Shown: in pieces, positions 410 through 9,422 of the stretch
Position numbering within the stretch: the first letter of the stretch is position 1
Layout: every line of letters begins with the position of its first letter
NCBI RefSeq assembly: GCF_900141915.1
Contig: NZ_FQZG01000017.1
Location: forward strand, 1 to 64,000
Length of the DNA: 64,000 nucleotides
Origin: Tessaracoccus bendigoensis DSM 12906
GTDB lineage: Bacteria; Actinomycetota; Actinomycetes; Propionibacteriales; Propionibacteriaceae
Direction: 5' to 3'
Program-made: the position numbers and the translations under genes
The notes under the pieces: model-generated
What the model was told of the DNA's origin: nothing
Databases searched by the model: none
The model's input: the letters and a program-made list of their open reading frames with translations, nothing else

Positions 410-1230
410 TCAGACGGGCTGCCGGAGAGCCATTCCCTCGACCGGCCCCTCCCAGTTCGGCTTCCAGCCAAGCGCGGGTGCCACGTGCTTGGCAAACGAC
501 TCGAGCACATGCAGGTTGTAGGCGACCCCCAACTGGTTCGGCACCGTCAGCATGACGGTGTCTGCCGACTGGACCGCCGAGTCGGCGAGCAACTGCTCGA
601 TCAGCCGGTCAGGCTCAGCCGCATAGGTCTTCCCAAACGTCGAGCGGAAACCGTCGATCATCCCGACCTGGTCCGACTCCTCGTCGCGCCCGTCGCCGAA
701 GTAGCGTGCATCCAGTTCGCTCACGATGGGGAAGATGCTGCGGCTGACCGACACCCTCGGAGCACCGGAGTGCCCCGCGTCCCGGTATGCCTGGCGGAAC
801 GCGTCAATCTGCTCAGCCTGCAGTTCATGGAACGGCTTTCCGGTGGCCTCCGTCAGCAAAGTCGAACTCATCAGGTTCAGACCCCTCCCGCCCGCCCACT
901 CGGCCGAAGCCCGGGTCCCGCTCCCCCACCAGACGTGCTTCGGCAGCGTCGTCGACTGCGGCTCGATCCGCAGCCTGGTGCCCGGAGGCGCCATCCGCGG
1001 GTCGGCATCGACCAGCGACCCACCACCCACCGCAGCCCAGAACAGGTCGAACTTCTCGCGTGCGAGGTCGGCGCCTCGCGGGTCCTGCGAACCGGTGTAG
1101 CCGAACGCCTCATAGCCACGCAGCGCGGTCTCCGGCGATCCCCTGCTCATTCCGAGCGCGAGCCGCCCATCTGAAAGGAGGTCGAGCGCGGCGGCCTCCT
1201 CCGCGAGATACAACGGGTTCTCGTAGCGCA
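410..1230 (-). pseudogene. LLM-class flavin oxidoreductase, C-terminal part (split gene)
   Basis: This codes for the C-terminal 271 or so residues of a luciferase-like FMN/F420-dependent monooxygenase. The conserved start of the piece is YENPLYLAEEAAALDLLSDG, followed by GRLALGMSRGSPE, and it ends in a normal stop. The first 82-83 residues of the same protein lie 7.9 kb away at 9145-9396, on the same strand. Joining ...GTGVIDLR to YENPLYLAEE gives the contiguous family motif and a protein of about 354 aa, a normal length for the family. The reading frame runs a few codons into the integrated element (to 1255), but those codons are foreign. The gene was interrupted by the element at 1224-9152. 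The substrate is unknown. Confidence 0.9.
1224..1230. other. Left attachment core (attL)
   Basis: TAGCGCA is shared exactly with 9146-9152 and marks where oxidoreductase coding sequence changes to element sequence. The integrase starts 40 bp inside this end, the usual position next to att. GGTTGCA occurs twice in the arm (1237-1243 and 1264-1270) and could be integrase contacts. The exact crossover dinucleotide cannot be assigned. Confidence 0.75.
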
Positions 1231-1269
1231 ACTCACGGTTGCAACACTCGTTCACGTAAGCTTGGTTGC

Positions 1270-2706
1270 ATGGTTGAACTGGTGTCGCTGAGGAAGACGA
1301 ACGAGGTCGCCGCGTACGTCCGTGCCTCGATGGATCGCAAGGGTGACCGGTGGACGGTCGAGACCCAGTTGCGGAAGATCAGGGCTCTCGCCGAGGCCAA
1401 GGACTGGGAGGTCGTCGAGGTCTACGACGACAACGCCGTCTCGGCGACGAAGAAGCGCCGCGCTGGCACCCGGTGGGCCGAGATGCTGGACGACGCCCGC
1501 GCGGGCCGGTTCTCGATGGTCGTCGCCGTGGACATGGACCGGCTCTTGCGCAGCACGAAGGACCTGAACACGCTGATCGACCTCGGCCTGCGTGTCGTCA
1601 CCGTGGACGGCGAGATCGACCTCTCGACGGCAGACGGCGAGTTCCGGGCGACGATGCTCGCCGCTCTCGCCCGGTTCGAGGCGCGTCGCAAGGCCGAGCG
1701 ACAGATCAGATCGAACGAGCGCCGACGTGCCGAAGGTATCCCCACGTCCGCCTGGAAGGCATTCGGCTGGACGAGGGAGGGTGAGGTGATCGAGGAGGAG
1801 GCCGACGCCGTTCGGCAGGCCTTCGACGCGTTCCTCGGCGAGCCGTCGCTGTCGATCCGGCGAATCCGCGAGGATCTGAACGGTGCCGGTCATCTCACCG
1901 CCCGCGGATCGGAGTTCTCCGTCGATGCCGTGCGCTACCTCCTGGCGAACCCGCTCTACGCTGGCTACATCAAGCACTACGCGTCGGGCGAGTTGTACCC
2001 GGTGCAGGGCGACGCGTTCCCGCCCATCGTCGGCGAGCAGACATGGCGGGCCGCGGTGGCGAAGCTGGAGGACAACGTGCGGAGGTCGGCTAGGCAGGGC
2101 AACCAGCCGAAGTACCTCCTGTCCACGATCGGGCTGTGCGGGAAGTGCGGCGCGACGCTCGTCTCGGGGACGAACAGCCGCAAGCAGGCGACGTACCGCT
2201 GCGGCGAGCTATTCCACCTCACCCGCCAGCGCGAGCCCGTCGATGCGATGGTCACCGAGGCAGTGCTCACCCGCCTGTCCTCGGTGGACGTGCACGACCT
2301 CGTTATGCCGCAGGAGGACGACGGGCCGGACCGCGAGGAGCTGCTGACCGAGCGGAACGCCCTGGTCGAGCGGGTGAAGGAGCTGAGCCCGCTGCTGCGC
2401 GACATCCATCAGCCGGTCCTGGAGATCACGGCGGCGATCAACGACGTGAAGGCCCGCATCGACGATATCGACGCGGAGCTGCTCGACCGCTCGGTGTCGG
2501 TGTCGGCGAAGCTGCTCGCGGACGTGGACGAGCCGGTCGGCACCGCGGAGCGCCGTGAGATGGTCGAGGCGAAGTGGGAAGCGTTGGACATGGACCGCCG
2601 CCGGATGCTCGTGGACGAGCTGGTGACGGTGACCATCGAGCCCATCGCACCCGGTCACGTGAAGTTCGATCCCGACCTCATTCGGATAGAGCCGCGTCGC
2701 GACTGA
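1270..2706 (+). CDS. Large serine recombinase (integrase) of the element
   Basis: This 478-aa large serine recombinase should catalyse integration and excision of the surrounding element. The resolvase-type catalytic domain covers about residues 12-150, with the nucleophile Ser20 in YVRASMD. The conserved helix ARFEARRKAERQ follows, then a recombinase domain (about 180-290, including NPLYAGYIKHY). Next is a shortened zinc ribbon starting CGKCG, and a coiled-coil C terminus. The ATG at 1270 is chosen because the recombinase fold begins just after it; longer open frame upstream crosses into the oxidoreductase gene. A large palindrome directly follows the stop codon. Whether it needs a directionality factor is unknown; none is recognisable nearby, although the two small ORFs downstream are candidates. 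Confidence 0.92.
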   Translation: MVELVSLRKTNEVAAYVRASMDRKGDRWTVETQLRKIRALAEAKDWEVVEVYDDNAVSATKKRRAGTRWAEMLDDARAGRFSMVVAVDMDRLLRSTKDLNTLIDLGLRVVTVDGEIDLSTADGEFRATMLAALARFEARRKAERQIRSNERRRAEGIPTSAWKAFGWTREGEVIEEEADAVRQAFDAFLGEPSLSIRRIREDLNGAGHLTARGSEFSVDAVRYLLANPLYAGYIKHYASGELYPVQGDAFPPIVGEQTWRAAVAKLEDNVRRSARQGNQPKYLLSTIGLCGKCGATLVSGTNSRKQATYRCGELFHLTRQREPVDAMVTEAVLTRLSSVDVHDLVMPQEDDGPDREELLTERNALVERVKELSPLLRDIHQPVLEITAAINDVKARIDDIDAELLDRSVSVSAKLLADVDEPVGTAERREMVEAKWEALDMDRRRMLVDELVTVTIEPIAPGHVKFDPDLIRIEPRRD

Positions 2707-2708
2707 CT

Positions 2709-2748
2709 CATGACTCGACTCGTCATTGCAATGGTGAGTCGAGTCATG
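2709..2748. repeat. 40-bp near-perfect palindrome after the integrase gene
   Basis: CATGACTCGACTC (2709-2721) and GAGTCGAGTCATG (2736-2748) are exact complements, and the centre contains the perfect palindrome CATTGCAATG (2724-2733). Together 18 of 20 pairs match. There is no T-run, so a simple intrinsic terminator is not the best reading. An operator for the downstream rep-mob operon or a single-strand replication origin fits the context better. Confidence 0.8.
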
Positions 2749-2887
2749 GGAGAATAGTTGCAGACAAGAAGATCCCACCGGGGCCGCGACTTAGAAGCGC
2801 GGGGTTCTGCTCCCGGATGAGTAGCCGGTCAAACAGCCCAATTACCGTGGCGGGGAACCGGAAGATACTCATGTCTGAGGACTTCCG

Positions 2888-3100
2888 ATGTCTGTCGTTA
2901 TCGACGTTCCCCGCGCATCCGCGCTGGACCGTCCTGGGCCTGCCCAGGACTCGATCCCCGTTCCGCATGCTGATGGGCTCGATCCCGTCATCGCCGCCGC
3001 CCGCGCCGCCGGTCGCCGAGCCGGTGAGCGTCTGGCTCTCACTCCGCTGAACCCGCGCCAGCGCGCCGCTGTCGCCGCCGTGATGGGCGGTGGTCGCTGA
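2888..3100 (+). CDS. Small protein of unknown function, element operon
   Basis: A 70-aa product, rich in Ala and Arg, that I do not recognise. It starts at an ATG preceded by GAGGA and ends in a TGATG overlap with the next gene, which supports it being a real, translationally coupled operon member. There are no membrane segments or cysteines. It is the first gene after the 40-bp palindrome and so may head the replication-mobilization operon. Small leading proteins of this kind are often copy-control or excision factors, but nothing in this sequence shows that. Confidence 0.6.
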   Translation: MSVVIDVPRASALDRPGPAQDSIPVPHADGLDPVIAAARAAGRRAGERLALTPLNPRQRAAVAAVMGGGR

Positions 3101-3348
3101 TGAGCGCCAACTCCGCCGCCTTCGACCACGTGAACGGCTTCCGCTGGCGACAGGGCGACCCCTCCCTCGCCGAGTCCGAGGCACGTCTCTACGACCTCGG
3201 CGTGCTCCGCTCCGTGCTGGAGGAGTCCGTCGAGATCGCCGTCGCCGACGCCCGCACCGATGGGGTGACCTGGGCGAAGATCGGCGACGCCCTCGGTGTC
3301 ACGCACCAGGCCGTCATCAAGCGCTACAGCAAGGGCGGTGCCCGATGA
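3100..3348 (+). CDS. Small helix-turn-helix protein
   Basis: An 82-aa protein whose C-terminal third, with VTWAKIGDALGVTHQAVIKR, reads as a helix-turn-helix: a W-x-x-I-G-x-x-L-G-V-x-x-Q-A-V pattern typical of small actinobacterial DNA-binding proteins. It overlaps the previous gene by TGATG and the Rep gene by ATGA, so the three are translationally coupled. A likely job is control of rep transcription or a helper role in replication or excision; the palindrome at 2709-2748 is a plausible target. The function is inferred only from the motif and position. Confidence 0.7.
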   Translation: MSANSAAFDHVNGFRWRQGDPSLAESEARLYDLGVLRSVLEESVEIAVADARTDGVTWAKIGDALGVTHQAVIKRYSKGGAR

Positions 3349-5597
3349 GCACCACCGACCGCACCAGCGCCCTCGTGTCCGCCGACCTGACCCTGCCCGG
3401 AGGGCCTGACCTGGCACCCGCCGCAGGCGGGCTGCCCGGTGCCGTTCCGAGCGGTGAGAGCCCGGTTCTCACCGTCGAGGACGATTTCGCAGGAAACGGC
3501 TATACGGCTGCACAGACCGACCCCGACGACTCCGAGGCGACCGTCGATCTCGGCTCTGACCAGGGAACTAACGCCGATCAGCATGCGCGGCCCTCCTTGG
3601 GTGGCCGCGCATCCGTTTCGGAAACGGCTGCACCAGCGCCTACCCCGGTTGCACTCGTGGACTTCGCCGAGCTGGACGTGCCGGGAGCCGATCCCGGCGA
3701 TGAGGTCGAGGCGTTCGTCGTCGAGTCCACGCCCGCGCAGGTCGCCGAGGCAAAGGAGTTCTTCGCCGGGGCGAAGGCTGCCGAGAGCCCGGAACAGGTG
3801 AAGCGCGCCCGGATGCAGTCGCGCGTGTTCTCGGTGATGCAGTACCGGGAGCGCCCCGAGACCGGCGAGGTCATGCTCACGCAGGAGCAGATCGACGAGG
3901 GTCTCGCGGCGCTGGGCGATCGCCTCCACCGCTGGGCCTACGTGTGGCACCCGTATGACCGACTGGTCGAGGTGGACGAGGGCACCGGCGAGACGGTGTG
4001 CTGTGGGATCAAGGGTCTGCACGCTCACATGGTGTTGTGGGTCGCTGATGCCGATGGTCCGCGCCCTACGATCCGCACCGTCTCCGATGCCTTCTCGATC
4101 CCCTCGGCTCGCGTGAAGCCGCCGAAGGAGACCGCCGAGCAGGAGGGCACGGAGCACAAGGGTCGCGGCGCGGCGGAGAGGGCATTCTTCGATCTCGCCG
4201 AGTACCTGCCGCATGAGTCGCGGGGGAAGAACGCCATCCCGGGCATCCACCAGTCGGATCGGCACTATCTCGTGGACAAGACGCAGGAGGGCATGCCCGG
4301 CAAGTATCAGTACGGCCGCGGGCGGATCGTCGCGAACTTCGATTTCGGGCAGGAGCTTGACGCGCACATGGCGATGCGCCGCAACGCCGCGGAGGGTGGC
4401 GGGGGTGCGAAGCTCAGCAAGCTCTTCCAGGCCGTAGGCAAGGGCTCGCTGACGTTGAAGCAGGTTCGTGATCAGGAGCCGGCGATCTATTTCGCGAAGG
4501 GAAACCTGGCTCATTTCCAGAAGCTGCGGGGCGACTTCCTCGCGTATCAGGACGCGCCCGAGTCGGTCATGAACTTCTACGTTTTCGGCGAGGGCGGCAC
4601 GGGCAAGGATCTGCTCGCGAAGGCGCTCGCTCGCGCTCTGGCCCCGGACGCGGATAAGCCGTACTTCAAGGTGGGCGGCGAGAACGTCTCATGGGAGGGG
4701 TACGACGGCGAGCCGGTCGTGATCTGGGAGGACATGCGCGTCGGCGACATGATCCGCACGGCCAAGAGCCGCGGCATGCTCTTCCGCATTCTCAGCCCGT
4801 GGCGCGAGCCGGACGAGAAGCCGATCGTGAACATCAAGGGGTCGAAGACCCAGCTGCTCAACCGGGTGAACATCGTGACGGGGCCGGAGGGCTACGAGGA
4901 GTTCCTCCGGGGCCTGGCTGGCGAGTACGAGTCGATGCAGGGCGGCGTGCGAGTCAAGCACCAGGCGGAGAACCTCGGACAGGGGTTCCGCCGCTTCCCA
5001 GTGATCATCCCGGTCGCCGAGCGCGAGTTCTCGATTTTCGTGAACTCCGGCGTGCTCAACGGCACCCGCGAGTACCAGAGCTACGAGCGGTACGAGCACA
5101 TGCGCCAGGACCTCGAACTGCTGGCTCGCAGGTGCAAGGCGATCAAGGACACCGCAGAGCGGGAGCGCGTACGCGGTGAGATCGAGGCGCGTACGGTCGC
5201 GCCGATCGTGGAGCAGCATGATCGGATCGCCCACCCCGAGCTGGATGCGATCGACGGCGACAACCTGCTCGCGGAGTTCGCCGGGGTCGGCCAGCCGATT
5301 CAGCCGAGCGATGAGGAGATCGCCCTGGCGGAAGAGGCGGCGAAGCGTGACCGTGAGATCGTCGAGGAACAGCAGCGCAAGCGTCTCGCCGAGTTGGAGG
5401 AGCACAACCGTGAGCTGAAGCTGTGCACCTGTTCGACGCCGCAGTCGGGCACCTATGCGCGTCATGGCGACGACTGTCCCGCGCTCTCCGAGGAGGAGCG
5501 CGAGCGTCGTGCCGCCGCCAAGCGGAAGGCCCTCGACGCGAAGGTCGAGCGCCTCCGGGCGAACGGCGGGCTGCTGGTCGCGGGAGGTGCGCGATGA
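3345..5597 (+). CDS. rep: Rolling-circle Rep: HUH endonuclease plus SF3 helicase
   Basis: A 750-aa replication initiator. Residues 1-130 are low-complexity. The endonuclease follows: FSVMQY (motif 1), the metal-binding H226-A-H228 in GLHAHMVLW, and a candidate catalytic region around YLPHES (Tyr287). An SF3-type ATPase comes next, with Walker A GEGGTGKD at 415-422 and an acidic stretch VIWEDMR serving as Walker B. This endonuclease-helicase layout is that of plasmid Reps related to CRESS-DNA virus Reps. The tail contains C-x-C and C-x8-C spacings (LCTCSTPQSG, then GDDCP) and is highly charged. The ATG at 3345 overlaps the previous stop (ATGA). Two perfect hairpins lie inside the 5' part of the gene at 3583-3627. 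The true nicking Tyr needs an alignment. Confidence 0.85.
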   Translation: MSTTDRTSALVSADLTLPGGPDLAPAAGGLPGAVPSGESPVLTVEDDFAGNGYTAAQTDPDDSEATVDLGSDQGTNADQHARPSLGGRASVSETAAPAPTPVALVDFAELDVPGADPGDEVEAFVVESTPAQVAEAKEFFAGAKAAESPEQVKRARMQSRVFSVMQYRERPETGEVMLTQEQIDEGLAALGDRLHRWAYVWHPYDRLVEVDEGTGETVCCGIKGLHAHMVLWVADADGPRPTIRTVSDAFSIPSARVKPPKETAEQEGTEHKGRGAAERAFFDLAEYLPHESRGKNAIPGIHQSDRHYLVDKTQEGMPGKYQYGRGRIVANFDFGQELDAHMAMRRNAAEGGGGAKLSKLFQAVGKGSLTLKQVRDQEPAIYFAKGNLAHFQKLRGDFLAYQDAPESVMNFYVFGEGGTGKDLLAKALARALAPDADKPYFKVGGENVSWEGYDGEPVVIWEDMRVGDMIRTAKSRGMLFRILSPWREPDEKPIVNIKGSKTQLLNRVNIVTGPEGYEEFLRGLAGEYESMQGGVRVKHQAENLGQGFRRFPVIIPVAEREFSIFVNSGVLNGTREYQSYERYEHMRQDLELLARRCKAIKDTAERERVRGEIEARTVAPIVEQHDRIAHPELDAIDGDNLLAEFAGVGQPIQPSDEEIALAEEAAKRDREIVEEQQRKRLAELEEHNRELKLCTCSTPQSGTYARHGDDCPALSEEERERRAAAKRKALDAKVERLRANGGLLVAGGAR
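3583..3627. other. Two adjacent hairpins inside rep, candidate replication origin
   Basis: Hairpin 1: ATGCGCGGCC (3583-3592) pairs with GGCCGCGCAT (3603-3612) across a 10-base loop. Hairpin 2: CCGTTTC (3613-3619) pairs with GAAACGG (3621-3627) with a single-base loop. The sequence GGAAACGGCT also occurs upstream at 3492-3501. They lie in the part of rep that codes for the low-complexity N-terminal extension. Double-strand origins of rolling-circle replicons are commonly such hairpins in or near rep, so this is a candidate dso. Confidence 0.5.
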
Positions 5598-6184
5598 GCA
5601 CCGAACGTGATGCGCTCTTCCAGGGGGTCGAGGGGGCCGGAGGCCCCTCGCAAGCAGGCCTGTCGGACACGAGCGTCAGCGATGTGTCCGACAGGCCTAC
5701 TGCTTGCCACTCTGGCGTACAGGTGGAGCAGCAGATCGACTCCCAGGTGAACACCGGTCGGGCTGATGCGGAGGCTGTGCGTCAGAGTCACGGCGGCGCG
5801 AAGCGTCGTCGTGGGGGCCGCGCGAAGCTCGATACCGACTTCGGAGAGGCCACGCTCGCGGCGCTTCGCACTCGTGCGAAGCGGCTCGGGCTGGCTCCGA
5901 GCACGTGGGTGCGGACCGTCGTCCGGGATGCCCTGCACGCCTCTCGGAGCGAGGAGCTGGACGCCGCCGTGGCCGCGCACCTGCTCGGCGTCGAGGAGCG
6001 CGCGCAGGTGTCGGCGGATGCTCGCGAGCTGGCCGCGCAGATCCGCCCGCTGGCGATCAACGTCAACGACCTGGACCGCCGCGCGCGGGCCGGTGAGGCG
6101 GTGGCGCTGTCGGCGGAGGTGCCCGAGCTGATCGAGCTGCTGCGCGAGGTCCGCGCGCTGCTCGGGGATCGAGTCGTCTCATGA
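5594..6184 (+). CDS. mobC: MobC-like relaxosome accessory protein
   Basis: A 196-aa protein that probably binds the transfer origin and helps the relaxase nick it. The central part has a basic patch (KRRRGGRAKLD) followed by a ribbon-helix-helix-like stretch (RAKRLGLAPSTWVRTVVRDA). The C-terminal region AAQIRPLAINVNDLDRRARA resembles the conserved MobC segment (I-x-x-x-N-N-L-N-Q). It starts at an ATG overlapping the rep stop (ATGA) and ends overlapping the relaxase start. The N-terminal 70 or so residues are low-complexity and their codons contain a 15-bp inverted repeat (5656-5698). A later true start beyond the hairpin is possible, but no good ATG is seen there. Confidence 0.75.
   Translation: MSTERDALFQGVEGAGGPSQAGLSDTSVSDVSDRPTACHSGVQVEQQIDSQVNTGRADAEAVRQSHGGAKRRRGGRAKLDTDFGEATLAALRTRAKRLGLAPSTWVRTVVRDALHASRSEELDAAVAAHLLGVEERAQVSADARELAAQIRPLAINVNDLDRRARAGEAVALSAEVPELIELLREVRALLGDRVVS
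5656..5698. other. 15-bp inverted repeat inside mobC, candidate oriT
   Basis: AGGCCTGTCGGACAC (5656-5670) and its exact complement GTGTCCGACAGGCCT (5684-5698) flank a 13-base spacer. Farther out, GCAAGC (5650-5655) and GCTTGC (5702-5707) also match as complements. The position, at the start of mobC and just upstream of the relaxase, is where transfer origins usually lie. A nic site cannot be assigned from sequence alone. Confidence 0.5.
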
Positions 6185-7467
6185 GCACGACGCACTACAG
6201 CCCGAGCACGAGCGCCGCCGACACCGAGCGCTACATCCGGGGCAAGGAAGATGAGCGGGGCGTCGCGATCACGTGCGATGTGCCGGGAGGCCCCGGCGCG
6301 TTCTCGGCGCGCGCCCGCGCGCTCACGCAGAACACGAAGCGCGACGTTGAGGCGCTGCACTACAGACAGTCGTTCAGCGACGAGGAGTTCGACCCGAACA
6401 ATCCGGAGGACGTGCAGCGGGTCAACGACCTGGGATATCAGCTCGCCAAGAAGATGCATCCGGACTCGGACTGCCTCGTGGTCAGCCATGTGGATGGACG
6501 GGGCAAGAAGCCGCACAACCACATTCTCGTGATCAACCACAACAACCGCACGGGAAAGGCGCTCTCGGACTACCGCACGTTCCACGACCGCAAGGCGGGG
6601 AATCAGCGGGGCGTGCAGTCGGCGAACGACGAGCTGATGCGCGAGCACGGGCTCTCAGTCGTGAAGCGGCTGGAGCACGCGCCGAAGGACTGGGAACTGC
6701 GCCGCGAGGACTTCGTCGAGGGCGGGCTCGACCGCGAGATGGGCGACCGGATGAGCGCCGCACTGGCCGATCCCCGTGCGGTGGACAGGGCCGGTCTCGA
6801 AGCGGTGATCGCGGAGCAGAACCAGCAGCTCGGCGATGACGGGAAGCGCGTGCCACGGATGCGACTGCACAGCCCCGTCAGCAAGAAGGGAAAGCGCGCC
6901 GGTCAGGAGACCTGGACGCTCTACATCGAGGACCGCCGCGGCGAGTCCGGGCGCGCCGAGCGCCGCAAGCGCACGTCTGCGCTCTCGGCGGACTTCACCC
7001 CGGAGGGCGCGCAGGCGTTCTTCGACTACCACCAGCAGCAGAAGGAGCAGGAACATGAGCGCAGCGCTCGACAGGCTGAAGCAGCAGAACGAGCCCGAGC
7101 AGTCGCCGCAGCAGCTCGGCAGCCCGGAGACGATGGAGCTGTTGACCTCGATCCTCGCCGCCGTCGAGGCGCAGAACACGCGGCTCGCCACGCTGACCGA
7201 GCAGCAGAAGAATCTCGCGGGGTTCGTGAAGGTCATGGACGAGGAGACGACGAGGCGGCTGGAGCGGGTCACGGCCCCACCGTCGACCTCCTCGCTCTCC
7301 AGCGACGTGTCCGTGAGGATCGCGAGCGTCGAGAGCAGGCTGAGCGAGATCGAGAGCACGCTCAGCGAGTTCGCGCAGAGTCTCGACGGGAAGCGCTTGA
7401 ACGCCGCGTCGCAGAGCTTGGTCGCAGAAGCGCAGAAGAATCACGCGGCTACGGCCTCGGCGATTGA
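6181..7467 (+). CDS. mobA: MobA/VirD2-family relaxase
   Basis: A 428-aa relaxase that would nick oriT and lead the strand in conjugation. The N-terminal catalytic domain follows the MobA/VirD2 plan: DTERYIRGKED with a candidate nucleophile Tyr18, then LHYRQSFS, a helix, and the metal-binding triad SHVDG (His103) with HNHI (His112 and His114). The C-terminal 150 residues are a charged, Arg/Glu-rich coiled-coil region. The ATG overlaps the mobC stop. From 7055 onward the same DNA also encodes the next gene in another frame, which may explain the biased composition of the relaxase tail. No coupling protein or secretion genes are present, so the element would borrow a helper system. Confidence 0.9.
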   Translation: MSTTHYSPSTSAADTERYIRGKEDERGVAITCDVPGGPGAFSARARALTQNTKRDVEALHYRQSFSDEEFDPNNPEDVQRVNDLGYQLAKKMHPDSDCLVVSHVDGRGKKPHNHILVINHNNRTGKALSDYRTFHDRKAGNQRGVQSANDELMREHGLSVVKRLEHAPKDWELRREDFVEGGLDREMGDRMSAALADPRAVDRAGLEAVIAEQNQQLGDDGKRVPRMRLHSPVSKKGKRAGQETWTLYIEDRRGESGRAERRKRTSALSADFTPEGAQAFFDYHQQQKEQEHERSARQAEAAERARAVAAAARQPGDDGAVDLDPRRRRGAEHAARHADRAAEESRGVREGHGRGDDEAAGAGHGPTVDLLALQRRVREDRERREQAERDREHAQRVRAESRREALERRVAELGRRSAEESRGYGLGD

Positions 7468-7960
7468 GGGGCTGAAGGCGCAGGCCGCGGTGAACCAGAA
7501 GCTCGTGAGCCAGGTCGGCGGCGCGGTCCAGCGGATCGAGAAGCGAACCGAGGAACGGGTCGAGAAGGCCGTCGAGCAGGTCGCCGGGGAGGCATCGGCC
7601 AGGATGACGGCGAACCTCGACGCGTCGAACGAGCGCGCCGAGCGGATCATGCAGGCGACGGCGAAGCTGGAGTCCCGTCAGCTCTGGTCTGCAGCCGCCG
7701 CGATGTGCCTCATCCTCCTGCCGGTGGTCGTGGTCGTCGCTGGGCTCTGGATGGGCGTCGCCGGGCTCATCACGGGTGCGCAGTGGGCTCTCGACGTGGA
7801 CGGGAGCGTGTGGCTCGGCATCGGGCGGTGGCTCGTGGCCGCTGTGGGCCTCGCCGGGGCCGCGTACGCCCTCTTCGCGTCCGTCCGCTGGGTCGCCGGG
7901 CTTGTGGAGACGTGGAGGGGTCGCGGGATGCCGAAGTGGCCTCGCTGGCGCAAGAGGTGA
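7055..7960 (+). CDS. MobB-like coiled-coil membrane protein, overlaps relaxase by 413 nt
   Basis: A 301-aa protein starting inside the relaxase gene in a different frame. The start is well supported by AAGGAG (about 7042-7047) eight bases upstream of the ATG. Residues 1-200 are a long heptad-rich coiled coil (for example SVESRLSEIESTLSEFAQSL). Two hydrophobic segments follow (about 215-240, LILLPVVVVVAGLWMGVAGL, and about 255-280), and the tail is basic. Membrane proteins read from within the relaxase gene (MobB) are known in ColE1/RSF1010-type mobilization modules, where they stabilise the relaxosome at the membrane. That role is inferred by analogy; no sequence homology can be claimed from inspection. 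Confidence 0.75.
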   Translation: MSAALDRLKQQNEPEQSPQQLGSPETMELLTSILAAVEAQNTRLATLTEQQKNLAGFVKVMDEETTRRLERVTAPPSTSSLSSDVSVRIASVESRLSEIESTLSEFAQSLDGKRLNAASQSLVAEAQKNHAATASAIEGLKAQAAVNQKLVSQVGGAVQRIEKRTEERVEKAVEQVAGEASARMTANLDASNERAERIMQATAKLESRQLWSAAAAMCLILLPVVVVVAGLWMGVAGLITGAQWALDVDGSVWLGIGRWLVAAVGLAGAAYALFASVRWVAGLVETWRGRGMPKWPRWRKR

Positions 7961-8040
7961 CCACGATTCCCGAGGGCAAGCGCGCGGAGCGCGTGCGGCA
8001 GTCCGTACAACTGGACGAGTGGTCAGTGCGCACTGTATAG
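7957..8040 (+). CDS. Possible 27-aa coupled peptide
   Basis: A GTG at 7957 overlaps the preceding stop codon (GTGA) and opens 27 codons ending in TAG at 8040. The product is charged with no recognisable motif. The overlap style matches the operon, but the reading frame runs straight through the cmtR promoter and operator, so chance is a real alternative. Confidence 0.25.
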   Translation: MTTIPEGKRAERVRQSVQLDEWSVRTV

Positions 8041-8041
8041 T
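8011..8041 (+). promoter_or_regulatory. cmtR promoter with palindromic operator
   Basis: CAGTGCGCACTG (8024-8035) is a perfect 12-bp palindrome directly abutting a good -10, TATAGT (8036-8041). A weak -35 (CTGGAC, 8011-8016) lies 19 bp upstream of it. The expected start of transcription is at or just before the ATG at 8048, so the mRNA would be leaderless. A repressor bound to the palindrome would block this promoter, fitting CmtR autoregulation. Confidence 0.6.
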
Positions 8042-8047
8042 CATCGT

Positions 8048-8407
8048 ATGCTGACCATTGCTTCACGCCTCGACGTCATGAACCGGCTCGGCCGGGCCAT
8101 GGCCGACCCGACTCGTTCCCGGATCCTGATGTCCCTGCTCGACGGCCCGAGCTACCCGGCCGTGCTCTCGCGCGAGCTGGAGCTCACCCGCTCGAACGTC
8201 TCCAACCACCTGACCTGCCTCCGCGACTGCGGGATCGTCGTTGCCGAGCCCGAGGGGCGACAGACCCGCTACGAGATCGCCGACCCGCACCTCGCCGCGG
8301 CGCTGACGTCCCTGATCGACGTCACGCTCGCGGTGGACGAGGACGCGCCGTGCATCGACCCGGCGTGCTCGGTGCCGGGATGCTGCGGGACGGCGGTGGA
8401 CGCATGA
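8048..8407 (+). CDS. cmtR: CmtR-type ArsR/SmtB metal-sensing repressor
   Basis: A 119-aa winged-helix repressor of the ArsR/SmtB family, expected to release DNA on binding Cd(II) or Pb(II). The recognition helix is TRSNVSNHLTCLRDCG, which contains Cys57 and Cys61. A third cysteine falls at 102 (DEDAPC). These are the same three positions that form the Cd/Pb site of Mycobacterium tuberculosis CmtR. Extra cysteines follow (106, 112 or so, CC near 115), making the tail more thiol-rich than CmtR. The next gene, a CDF transporter, overlaps by ATGA, so regulator and exporter form one operon behind the palindromic operator at 8024-8035. Confidence 0.93.
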   Translation: MLTIASRLDVMNRLGRAMADPTRSRILMSLLDGPSYPAVLSRELELTRSNVSNHLTCLRDCGIVVAEPEGRQTRYEIADPHLAAALTSLIDVTLAVDEDAPCIDPACSVPGCCGTAVDA

Positions 8408-9057
8408 GCGAGACTCTGACCACCGCGCGCCGCGCGACGCTTCACCGCCGCGTCCGATTCATCGTCGGGTTCACGATCACCTACAACGTCATCGAGGCCA
8501 TCGTCGCCGTCTGGGCGGGAGTCCTCGCGTCCTCGGCGGCGCTGATCGGCTTCGGGCTCGACTCGGTGGTCGAGGTGCTCTCGGCTGCAGCGATCGCCTG
8601 GCAGTTCACGCGCAAGCATCCCGAGCGATGGGAGAAGGTCACCGTGAAGGCGATCGGCATCGCCTTCTTCGCGCTGGCCGCCTACGTGTCCGTCGATGCC
8701 GTGCTCGCCTTGGTCGGCCAGGAAGGCCCCGACCATAGCCCTCTGGGCCTCGGCATCACCGCGCTGAGCCTGCTCATCATGCCGCTGCTGGCGTGGTTCG
8801 AGGTGCGGACCGGGCGAGAGCTGGGCTCCAAGAGCGTGATGGCCGACGCCAAGCAGCTCATCCTCTGCGTCTACCTGTCCGGCGCTGTGTTCGTCGGGCT
8901 CATCCTGAACAGCCTGTTCGGCTGGTGGTGGGCCGACTCCGTCGCGGCACTGGTCGTGGCGGTGCTCGCGGTGCGCGAGGGCCTGGAGGCATGGCGCGGC
9001 GACGTCGAGTCGCCGTTCGAGGTACTGGAGGACCTCGAGGACGAGGACGACGACTGA
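8404..9057 (+). CDS. Cation diffusion facilitator family metal exporter
   Basis: A 217-aa membrane transporter predicted to export divalent metal ions. It has about five to six hydrophobic segments. The CDF metal-site region of the second segment is seen as GFGLDSVVEV, the fifth-segment site as SVMADAKQLI, and the sixth as WWWADSVAALV. It ends in a run of acidic residues (EDLEDEDDD) in place of the long cytoplasmic domain of larger CDF proteins. Overlap with cmtR and the cysteine set of that regulator point to cadmium, lead or zinc as substrate. It is the last gene of the mobile element, followed by a terminator. Confidence 0.85.
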   Translation: MSETLTTARRATLHRRVRFIVGFTITYNVIEAIVAVWAGVLASSAALIGFGLDSVVEVLSAAAIAWQFTRKHPERWEKVTVKAIGIAFFALAAYVSVDAVLALVGQEGPDHSPLGLGITALSLLIMPLLAWFEVRTGRELGSKSVMADAKQLILCVYLSGAVFVGLILNSLFGWWWADSVAALVVAVLAVREGLEAWRGDVESPFEVLEDLEDEDDD

Positions 9058-9078
9058 TTCCCACGAGAGGATGACGGA

Positions 9079-9111
9079 GGAGGCCCCCGGAGCTCTGCTT
9101 CTGGGGCCTCC
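9079..9111 (+). terminator. Terminator after the CDF gene
   Basis: GGAGGCCCC (9079-9087) pairs with GGGGCCTCC (9103-9111), 9-bp stem and 15-base loop, 22 bp after the CDF stop codon. There is no T-run, as is common in high-GC genomes. Confidence 0.75.
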
Positions 9112-9144
9112 GCGGTTGCGCCAGTGTCATGACTCCGACATGTG

Positions 9145-9396
9145 CTAGCGCAGGTCGATCACCCCGGTGCCGACCTCGATCCGCCGCGTTCGCGCAGCCA
9201 TCGCGCTCAGCAGCGGCACAGGAGAGGCGGCCTGCCGCGCGAAGTGGTGGACGCGCACGTAAGCACCATTGACGCCCAACTCGTCGGCCCCGACGGCGAG
9301 CTCGACGCTCTGTTTCAGCATGTCTGCGGCGCTCCGGGTCTGAGACCCGGGCTGCGGCGAGTAGTGCCCGAACGACAAAAATCCAAATGCTCTCAC
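9145..9396 (-). pseudogene. LLM-class flavin oxidoreductase, N-terminal part (split gene)
   Basis: This carries the first 83 residues of the oxidoreductase whose remainder is at 410-1230. It begins GTG with MRAFGFLSFGHY and ends RRIEVGTGVIDLR, where the family continues with RYENPLYLAEE. The stop codon TAG is created by the element: the core TAGCGCA joins the Arg codon to foreign bases. The product would be only the first strands of the TIM barrel and not functional. The original promoter and start are still in place, so a truncated peptide could still be expressed unless excision restores the gene. Confidence 0.9.
9146..9152. other. Right attachment core (attR)
   Basis: A second copy of TAGCGCA, at the border between element DNA (ending ...GACTCCGACATGTGC) and the oxidoreductase 5' part. 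With 1224-1230 it defines the reconstructed empty site, in which GACCTGCGCTACGAG codes for D-L-R-Y-E. Confidence 0.75.
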
Positions 9397-9422
9397 AACG
9401 GGATCAACGATCCGGCACCTCG

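Follow-up and report, generated by a model that had tools for sequence, protein, structure and literature searches.

The window examined here comprises positions 1 to 64,000 of contig NZ_FQZG01000017.1 of Tessaracoccus bendigoensis DSM 12906. It contains an LLM-type oxidoreductase gene on the minus strand that, judging by its open reading frames (ORFs), is interrupted by a block of plus-strand genes at 1224-9147. This block represents a probable integrative mobilizable element (IME) of ~ 8 kb, bounded from TA to TA according to the comparison of its junctions. The C-terminal half of the target gene occupies 410-1223 and the N-terminal half of 83 aa occupies 9148-9396 (both minus strand), the latter being ended by a TAG at the junction. 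Both halves match PF00296 (Bac_luciferase) in a Pfam profile search, and the flanks joined without the element form a single open frame of 354 aa. This agrees with a first-pass annotation made from the letters of the window, which had read the two halves as one split gene that rejoins in frame. A tandem repeat of about four 21-bp copies lies beside the 3' end of the LLM gene, at 287-372.

The element end facing the C-terminal half of the gene carries a TA dinucleotide (1224-1225), an attP arm (1226-1251) and the gene of a large serine integrase of 478 aa (1270-2706, plus strand). The Resolvase and Recombinase domains of this protein (PF00239, PF07508) and its match to the phrog_95 integrases bear out its initial assignment, and the TP901-1 integrase catalytic domain is among its solved relatives. 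The opposite end holds the cargo genes, the second attP arm (9120-9145) and the second TA (9146-9147). When positions 410-9400 were compared as DNA to 39 genomes of the genus, the LLM gene proved to be unsplit in G002, G003, G004 (where it was matched in several frames), G005, G009 and G014. In these unsplit relatives, the two flank matches abut with an overlap of 5-7 bases at the core, and the empty sites carry GACATGCGC-TACGAGAACCC or a sequence close to it. The precise ends and the intact gene at the same point in related Tessaracoccus genomes, both anticipated at first reading, are hereby confirmed. The same search detected same-site elements in G007, G012, G017 and G018, and at a contig edge of G008.

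A scan of genome contigs with the window integrase as query returned 52 loci with integrases 86-97% identical in the best segment, spanning 29 named genera, 15 families and 7 orders, all within the class Actinomycetes. Together with L027, L032 and the window, these form a sample of 55 distinct loci, from which L028, L029 and L031 were removed as duplicate records of L047, L056 and L052. Loci with a TA located at both ends are referred to as complete elements (n = 36). The flank at the integrase end is readable in 49 of the 55 loci and belongs to the LLM gene in 46 (called from 14 residues only, at a contig edge, in L076) and to other genes in 3, indicating that the LLM site is strongly preferred, not exclusive. 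Elements sit at this site in 28 named genera and 6 orders, and looking for the same element elsewhere, as the first-pass annotation had suggested, has in this way yielded same-site relatives in many Actinomycetes genera. Complete elements are 6.7-11.0 kb long; the compactness once regarded as unusual is the norm of the family. Within the genus, an integrase of at least 84% identity is present in 6 of 39 genomes including the window's own (counted by a 52-residue fragment in G008 and in two frames in G007), and in an even sample of the class an integrase match at E 1e-150 or better occurs in 2 of 394 genomes, the window's own included. As candidate homes, plasmids and phages were both set aside, with no integrase match of at least 60% identity among 115 matching plasmid records or 810 matching phage records. 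The integrase was not found in viral contigs by patterns that detect close relatives only, and the one viral-contig match to an attP-circle pattern falls within a methyltransferase-like gene of an AT-rich contig and is taken as chance. At locus L078 (9989-21431), an 86% identical integrase at the same site is followed by a restriction-modification type methylase and a tyrosine integrase; no match to the other proteins of the window was found near this integrase, and the far end of the element was not located.

Elements of this family occupy the LLM site both ways round. With the integrase end toward the C-terminal half defined as orientation A and toward the N-terminal half as orientation B, 30 loci are A, 20 are B and 5 are untyped, and the ratio of 30:20 is not different from 1:1 (p 0.20). 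LLM sequence is present on both sides in 40 loci, and the orientation calls agree in all 40; these include L087, L092 and L093, where a whole LLM copy lies upstream and the integrase-end junction is lost. L055 and L086 were typed from the cargo end alone, and L076, which is B by eye, was counted as untyped here and entered the integrase tree as B. In 40 of the 50 typed loci, a single contig includes LLM sequence on either side, which makes misassembly an unlikely cause of the two orientations. Nearly identical elements can be found inserted opposite ways: L046 (B) and L047 (A) are 99.95% identical over 8,579 bp, L054 (B) and L056 (A) 99.87%, and L072 (B) and L088 (A) 99.86%. L048/L059 and L061/L063 are also opposite, and the five whole-element pairs differ by 0.05-0.3%. 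Both orientations occur within each of the genera Actinomyces, Arachnia, Brachybacterium, Kocuria, Gordonia, Corynebacterium, Leucobacter and Tessaracoccus.

Two integrase lineages of opposite site polarity could in principle account for such a mixture, and nothing beyond the existence of integrase variants speaks for them. Identical integrase genes belong to elements of either orientation (L046 in B with L047 in A; L075 in A with L076, by eye in B), and the two orientations do not cluster on the integrase tree. This tree, built for 45 of the 55 loci, requires 13 changes of orientation, compared to a mean of 13.1 with shuffled labels, and 288 of 500 shuffles are as low; its starred branches force 10 changes. 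At the level of sequence, the comparison shows that orientation relates randomly to the integrase tree, and an origin in two lineages appears extremely improbable. The fixed orientation of integration that goes with the asymmetric dinucleotide of the characterised large serine recombinases compared here is not what we observe (30 A versus 20 B), and the departure lies in the use of the site, not in the enzyme family.

The junctions offer a greater level of detail about how the site is used. The first-pass annotation took the 7-bp repeat TAGCGCA as the core of recombination. The repeat is indeed present, at 1224-1230 and 9146-9152, but only its TA is shared across the 36 complete elements. When the direct repeats of these loci are extended outward, their intersection is TA alone, and the repeat is exactly TA in 19 of the 36. 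It reaches 0 to 10 bases past the TA, rightward in orientation A and mostly leftward in B. As TA was sought at its expected spot, the test lies in the reach of each repeat and not in the presence of the TA. The following GCGCA is repeated in the window because the arm of this element and the host site both start with these bases. At the integrase end, the base that precedes the TA tracks the host, being A or G when the element lies in orientation A and C, G or T when it lies in B, and the bases that follow the TA track the element type; the reverse holds at the cargo end. The shared core, as read from the aligned junctions, is TA (1224-1225 = 9146-9147), pointing to a two-base crossover. The attP is pseudo-palindromic and, in many members, close to GACATGCGC-TA-GCGCATGTC. 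Its arms mirror each other at 11-23 of 26 positions (14 in the window copy) compared to 5-11 for the attB arms, and its halves resemble one half of attB. The metagenome contig of L053 starts exactly at the integrase-end TA, as if the assembly had forked there.

These observations can best be explained by an integrative mobilizable element with a site-specific large serine integrase, whose TA crossover permits either orientation, and we consider this reading very likely. The integrase would recombine attP with attB in the DMRYENP-coding stretch of the LLM gene, at the TA, joining the two sites in either alignment and letting the element land either way round. According to the excerpts of published work on which this comparison and those below draw, the two crossover bases alone give a site its polarity for serine integrases (PMC3556126, PMC3783163, PMC3642061), and synapsis of attP with attB is possible in either alignment (PMC3783163, PMC3556126). 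With engineered symmetric cores, the A118 integrase yielded deletion and inversion at 64.5/35.5 and 52.5/47.5 (PMC3556126). Since TA is self-complementary, a polarity read only from the crossover dinucleotide should result in insertion in both orientations.

Integration in one direction only, followed by a later in-place flip through attL x attR recombination, would be permitted by the same TA core, and its end products would be identical in sequence. For Bxb1, synapsis of attL with attR in the presence of the directionality factor depends on orientation (PMC3642061), whereas attP and attB can pair in both alignments (PMC3783163, PMC3556126). In-place flipping should hence be rare, and we regard this route as unlikely. 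We are similarly doubtful of a broader proposal, namely an orientation-blind family that, by way of its native self-complementary crossover, possibly also flips the integrated element in place. If it held, insertion into a widespread target gene would be two-way and reversible, and the direction of insertion would determine the reading of host and cargo genes across the junctions. Following direct insertion at the TA in either alignment, the reading that we prefer, excision would be aided by an element-coded directionality factor, the excised circle may replicate by rolling circle, and a co-resident conjugative system could mobilize it. The genome of the window holds seven matches to type IV secretion coupling proteins, which might act as helpers in this mobilization.

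The TA crossover also bears on the fate of the host gene, for which the first-pass annotation had envisaged an on/off switch. Because the TA supplies the first two bases of the motif's Tyr codon and G is the first base of most attP arms, the N-terminal half ends in TAG. Such an immediate TAG is present in 34 of the 35 complete loci with LLM sequence on both sides, whichever way the element points (L055, whose left flank is not LLM, is left out of the 36 for frames and stops). In favour of a regulated switch, the frame without the element stays open for at least 75 codons ahead of the site and 255 beyond it in 31 of these 35 loci, and excision would therefore restore the LLM gene; among the 4 loci failing this limit, L058 and L072 miss it by 1-3 codons. 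The random orientation and the immediate TAG argue the other way, and the target gene is decayed in L048 and L063. We saw no sign of regulated excision and found nothing tying the insertion to host physiology, and IMEs with site-specific serine recombinases are described, in the excerpted text of PMC5704250, as disrupting dispensable genes. A regulated switch is thus very unlikely, and we do not retain this part of the annotation.

Beyond the integrase, the order of two small ORFs, Rep, MobC-like, MobA, MobB-like and cargo genes is kept in most complete members. All element genes identified in the window by Pfam and NCBIfam searches, and the others named below, lie on the plus strand. The integrase stop is followed by a conserved, near-perfect 40-nt inverted repeat (2709-2748), a candidate terminator or regulatory site. 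It adopts 20 distinct versions in relatives although their Rep types differ, and a change in one arm often has its counterpart in the other, by eye and not as a formal covariation count; no T-run follows the repeat. A small conserved ORF of 70 aa (2888-3100) is present in 49 of 54 records and an 82-aa helix-turn-helix protein (3100-3348) in 47 of 54, the window included in both counts. The latter matches phrog_686, with HTH_23 below cut-off, and may be an excision factor or a Rep regulator. The Rep-like protein of 750 aa (3345-5597) contains a helicase domain (PF00910, above cut-off) and, by eye, motifs that we take to be HxH, YLxH and Walker A. Its matches to solved structures are weak, covering the P-loop region at E 0.02 or worse, and among plasmid proteins a Leptotrichia wadei Rep matches it best (32% over 62% of length). 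An HUH nuclease domain in this protein is at most putative.

The mobilization genes start with a conserved MobC-like protein of 196 aa (5594-6184), which is named by position only and has no Pfam, NCBIfam or PHROG match. Within the start of its gene lies a conserved hairpin (5653-5701), flanked by CAAGCAG/CTGCTTG and with the predicted fold in 18 of 18 distinct versions collected by blastn, making it a candidate oriT. The MobA/VirD2-type relaxase of 428 aa (6181-7467) matches PF03432 above cut-off. The gene of a MobB-like protein of 301 aa (7055-7960), named by position and showing two hydrophobic stretches by eye, begins within mobA in a different frame, and the two genes overlap by 413 bp (7055-7467). 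Overlaps of 350-416 bp in different frames occur in 40 of 42 records, with L083 and L092 as exceptions; MobB is cut short in L059. The cargo of the window consists of a CmtR-type Cd/Pb-sensing repressor (8048-8407; NF047906, above curated cut-off) and a cation diffusion facilitator (CDF) for metal efflux (8404-9057; PF01545 above cut-off, the TIGR01297 CDF model just under). Both the relaxase and the metal cargo had been read correctly at first pass. Elsewhere in the window's own genome, L041 (7529-9628) holds a second relative of the Rep (53% identity over the main stretch) with a CmtR relative (82%) in the same contig stretch, without this integrase.

Comparison of the 36 complete elements shows, from the sequences of their genes, that modules have been swapped between members, namely Rep, relaxase and cargo. 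The Rep of L047 represents a type found in 28 elements, that of the window a type in 5 and that of L075 a type in 3. The relaxase type of the window is found in 33 and a Mob_Pre type in 3 (MobV model below cut-off). Cargo includes a mercury reductase in 13 (that of L047 matches TIGR02053), a heavy-metal P-type ATPase in 18, a CDF in 2, an MFS protein in 2 and none of these in 2; L066 holds both a mercury reductase and a CDF. The window alone pairs its own Rep type with MobA and with CmtR and CDF. Broken relatives, such as G007 with its integrase in two frames and L083 with a short mobA, could indicate that the window element is a decayed remnant that is no longer mobile. Its named genes are all open, and copies that are 99.9% identical occur within the family in hosts from different orders. 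We therefore find loss of mobility quite unlikely.

Several points weigh against a mobilizable element that inserts at TA in either orientation. In L055, the integrase-end flank is a repeat protein, with the LLM C-terminal half on the other side, and the integrase ends of L085 (truncated integrase) and L091 lie in transporter-like genes by eye. Each of these three junctions is at a TA, and they are possible secondary attB sites or rearrangements. Our definition of complete elements expected the TA at a given spot and a fixed arm before the cargo-end TA, excluding L071 and L080 from the 36. The integrase tree is a quick one, with 14 of 36 inner branches starred, and many of its rows are near-copies, leaving the number of independent insertions uncertain. 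In the Pfam search, the window Rep matched PF00910 alone and had no Rep_OBD match. The earlier description of this Rep as CRESS-like stands for its helicase; Rep_OBD (PF01719) is matched by one member of each of two sister Rep types, not by the window Rep itself. No mating-pair genes were found by Pfam and NCBIfam among the eight element proteins searched, which do not cover every small ORF. Excision, replication of the circle and transfer are steps that we infer.

Among known systems, IMEs with site-specific serine recombinases share with this family the serine integrase, the relaxase, the Rep, the disrupted dispensable target gene and, among the element proteins searched, the lack of identified mating-pair genes (PMC5704250, as excerpted). 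This family differs from them in its two orientations at one site, its TA crossover and its wide Actinomycetes range. IME_Rho_tet is likewise ~ 10 kb long, with a serine recombinase, a relaxase, mobC, inverted end motifs and a very wide host range (PMC12904643); compared by its description, it differs in that its complete elements are in Bacillota, carry tet cargo and often have MAFF2 targets. The A118 and Bxb1 integrases share the two-base crossover as sole determinant of polarity (PMC3556126, PMC3642061, PMC3783163), and A118 also the pseudo-palindromic attP (PMC3556126). In contrast to the natively self-complementary dinucleotide found here, their native dinucleotides are asymmetric (GG, GT). 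The pCRESS integrated plasmids resemble this family, by way of the two sister Reps, in having a nuclease-helicase Rep in site-specifically integrated elements, and differ in view of the missing Rep_OBD match of the window Rep (PMC6668415).

Searches of the openly licensed PubMed Central literature turned up neither a description of this family nor a natural serine integrase whose crossover is palindromic. The insertion of one element family at one site in both directions is the main new point. As far as the excerpts of PMC3556126, PMC3783163 and PMC3642061 go, it was engineered sites that revealed the dinucleotide as the sole determinant of polarity. Here, nature seems to have repeated the engineered symmetric-core experiment many times, with an outcome of 60:40 that is near the engineered ratio. 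The family offers an orientation-blind integrase, together with a comparison set for the logic of attP and attB and for the search for an excision factor. For its hosts, one site in a conserved protein motif is an entry port through which metal-resistance genes come into 6 named actinobacterial orders, and 8.6-kb copies from different families are 99.9% identical.

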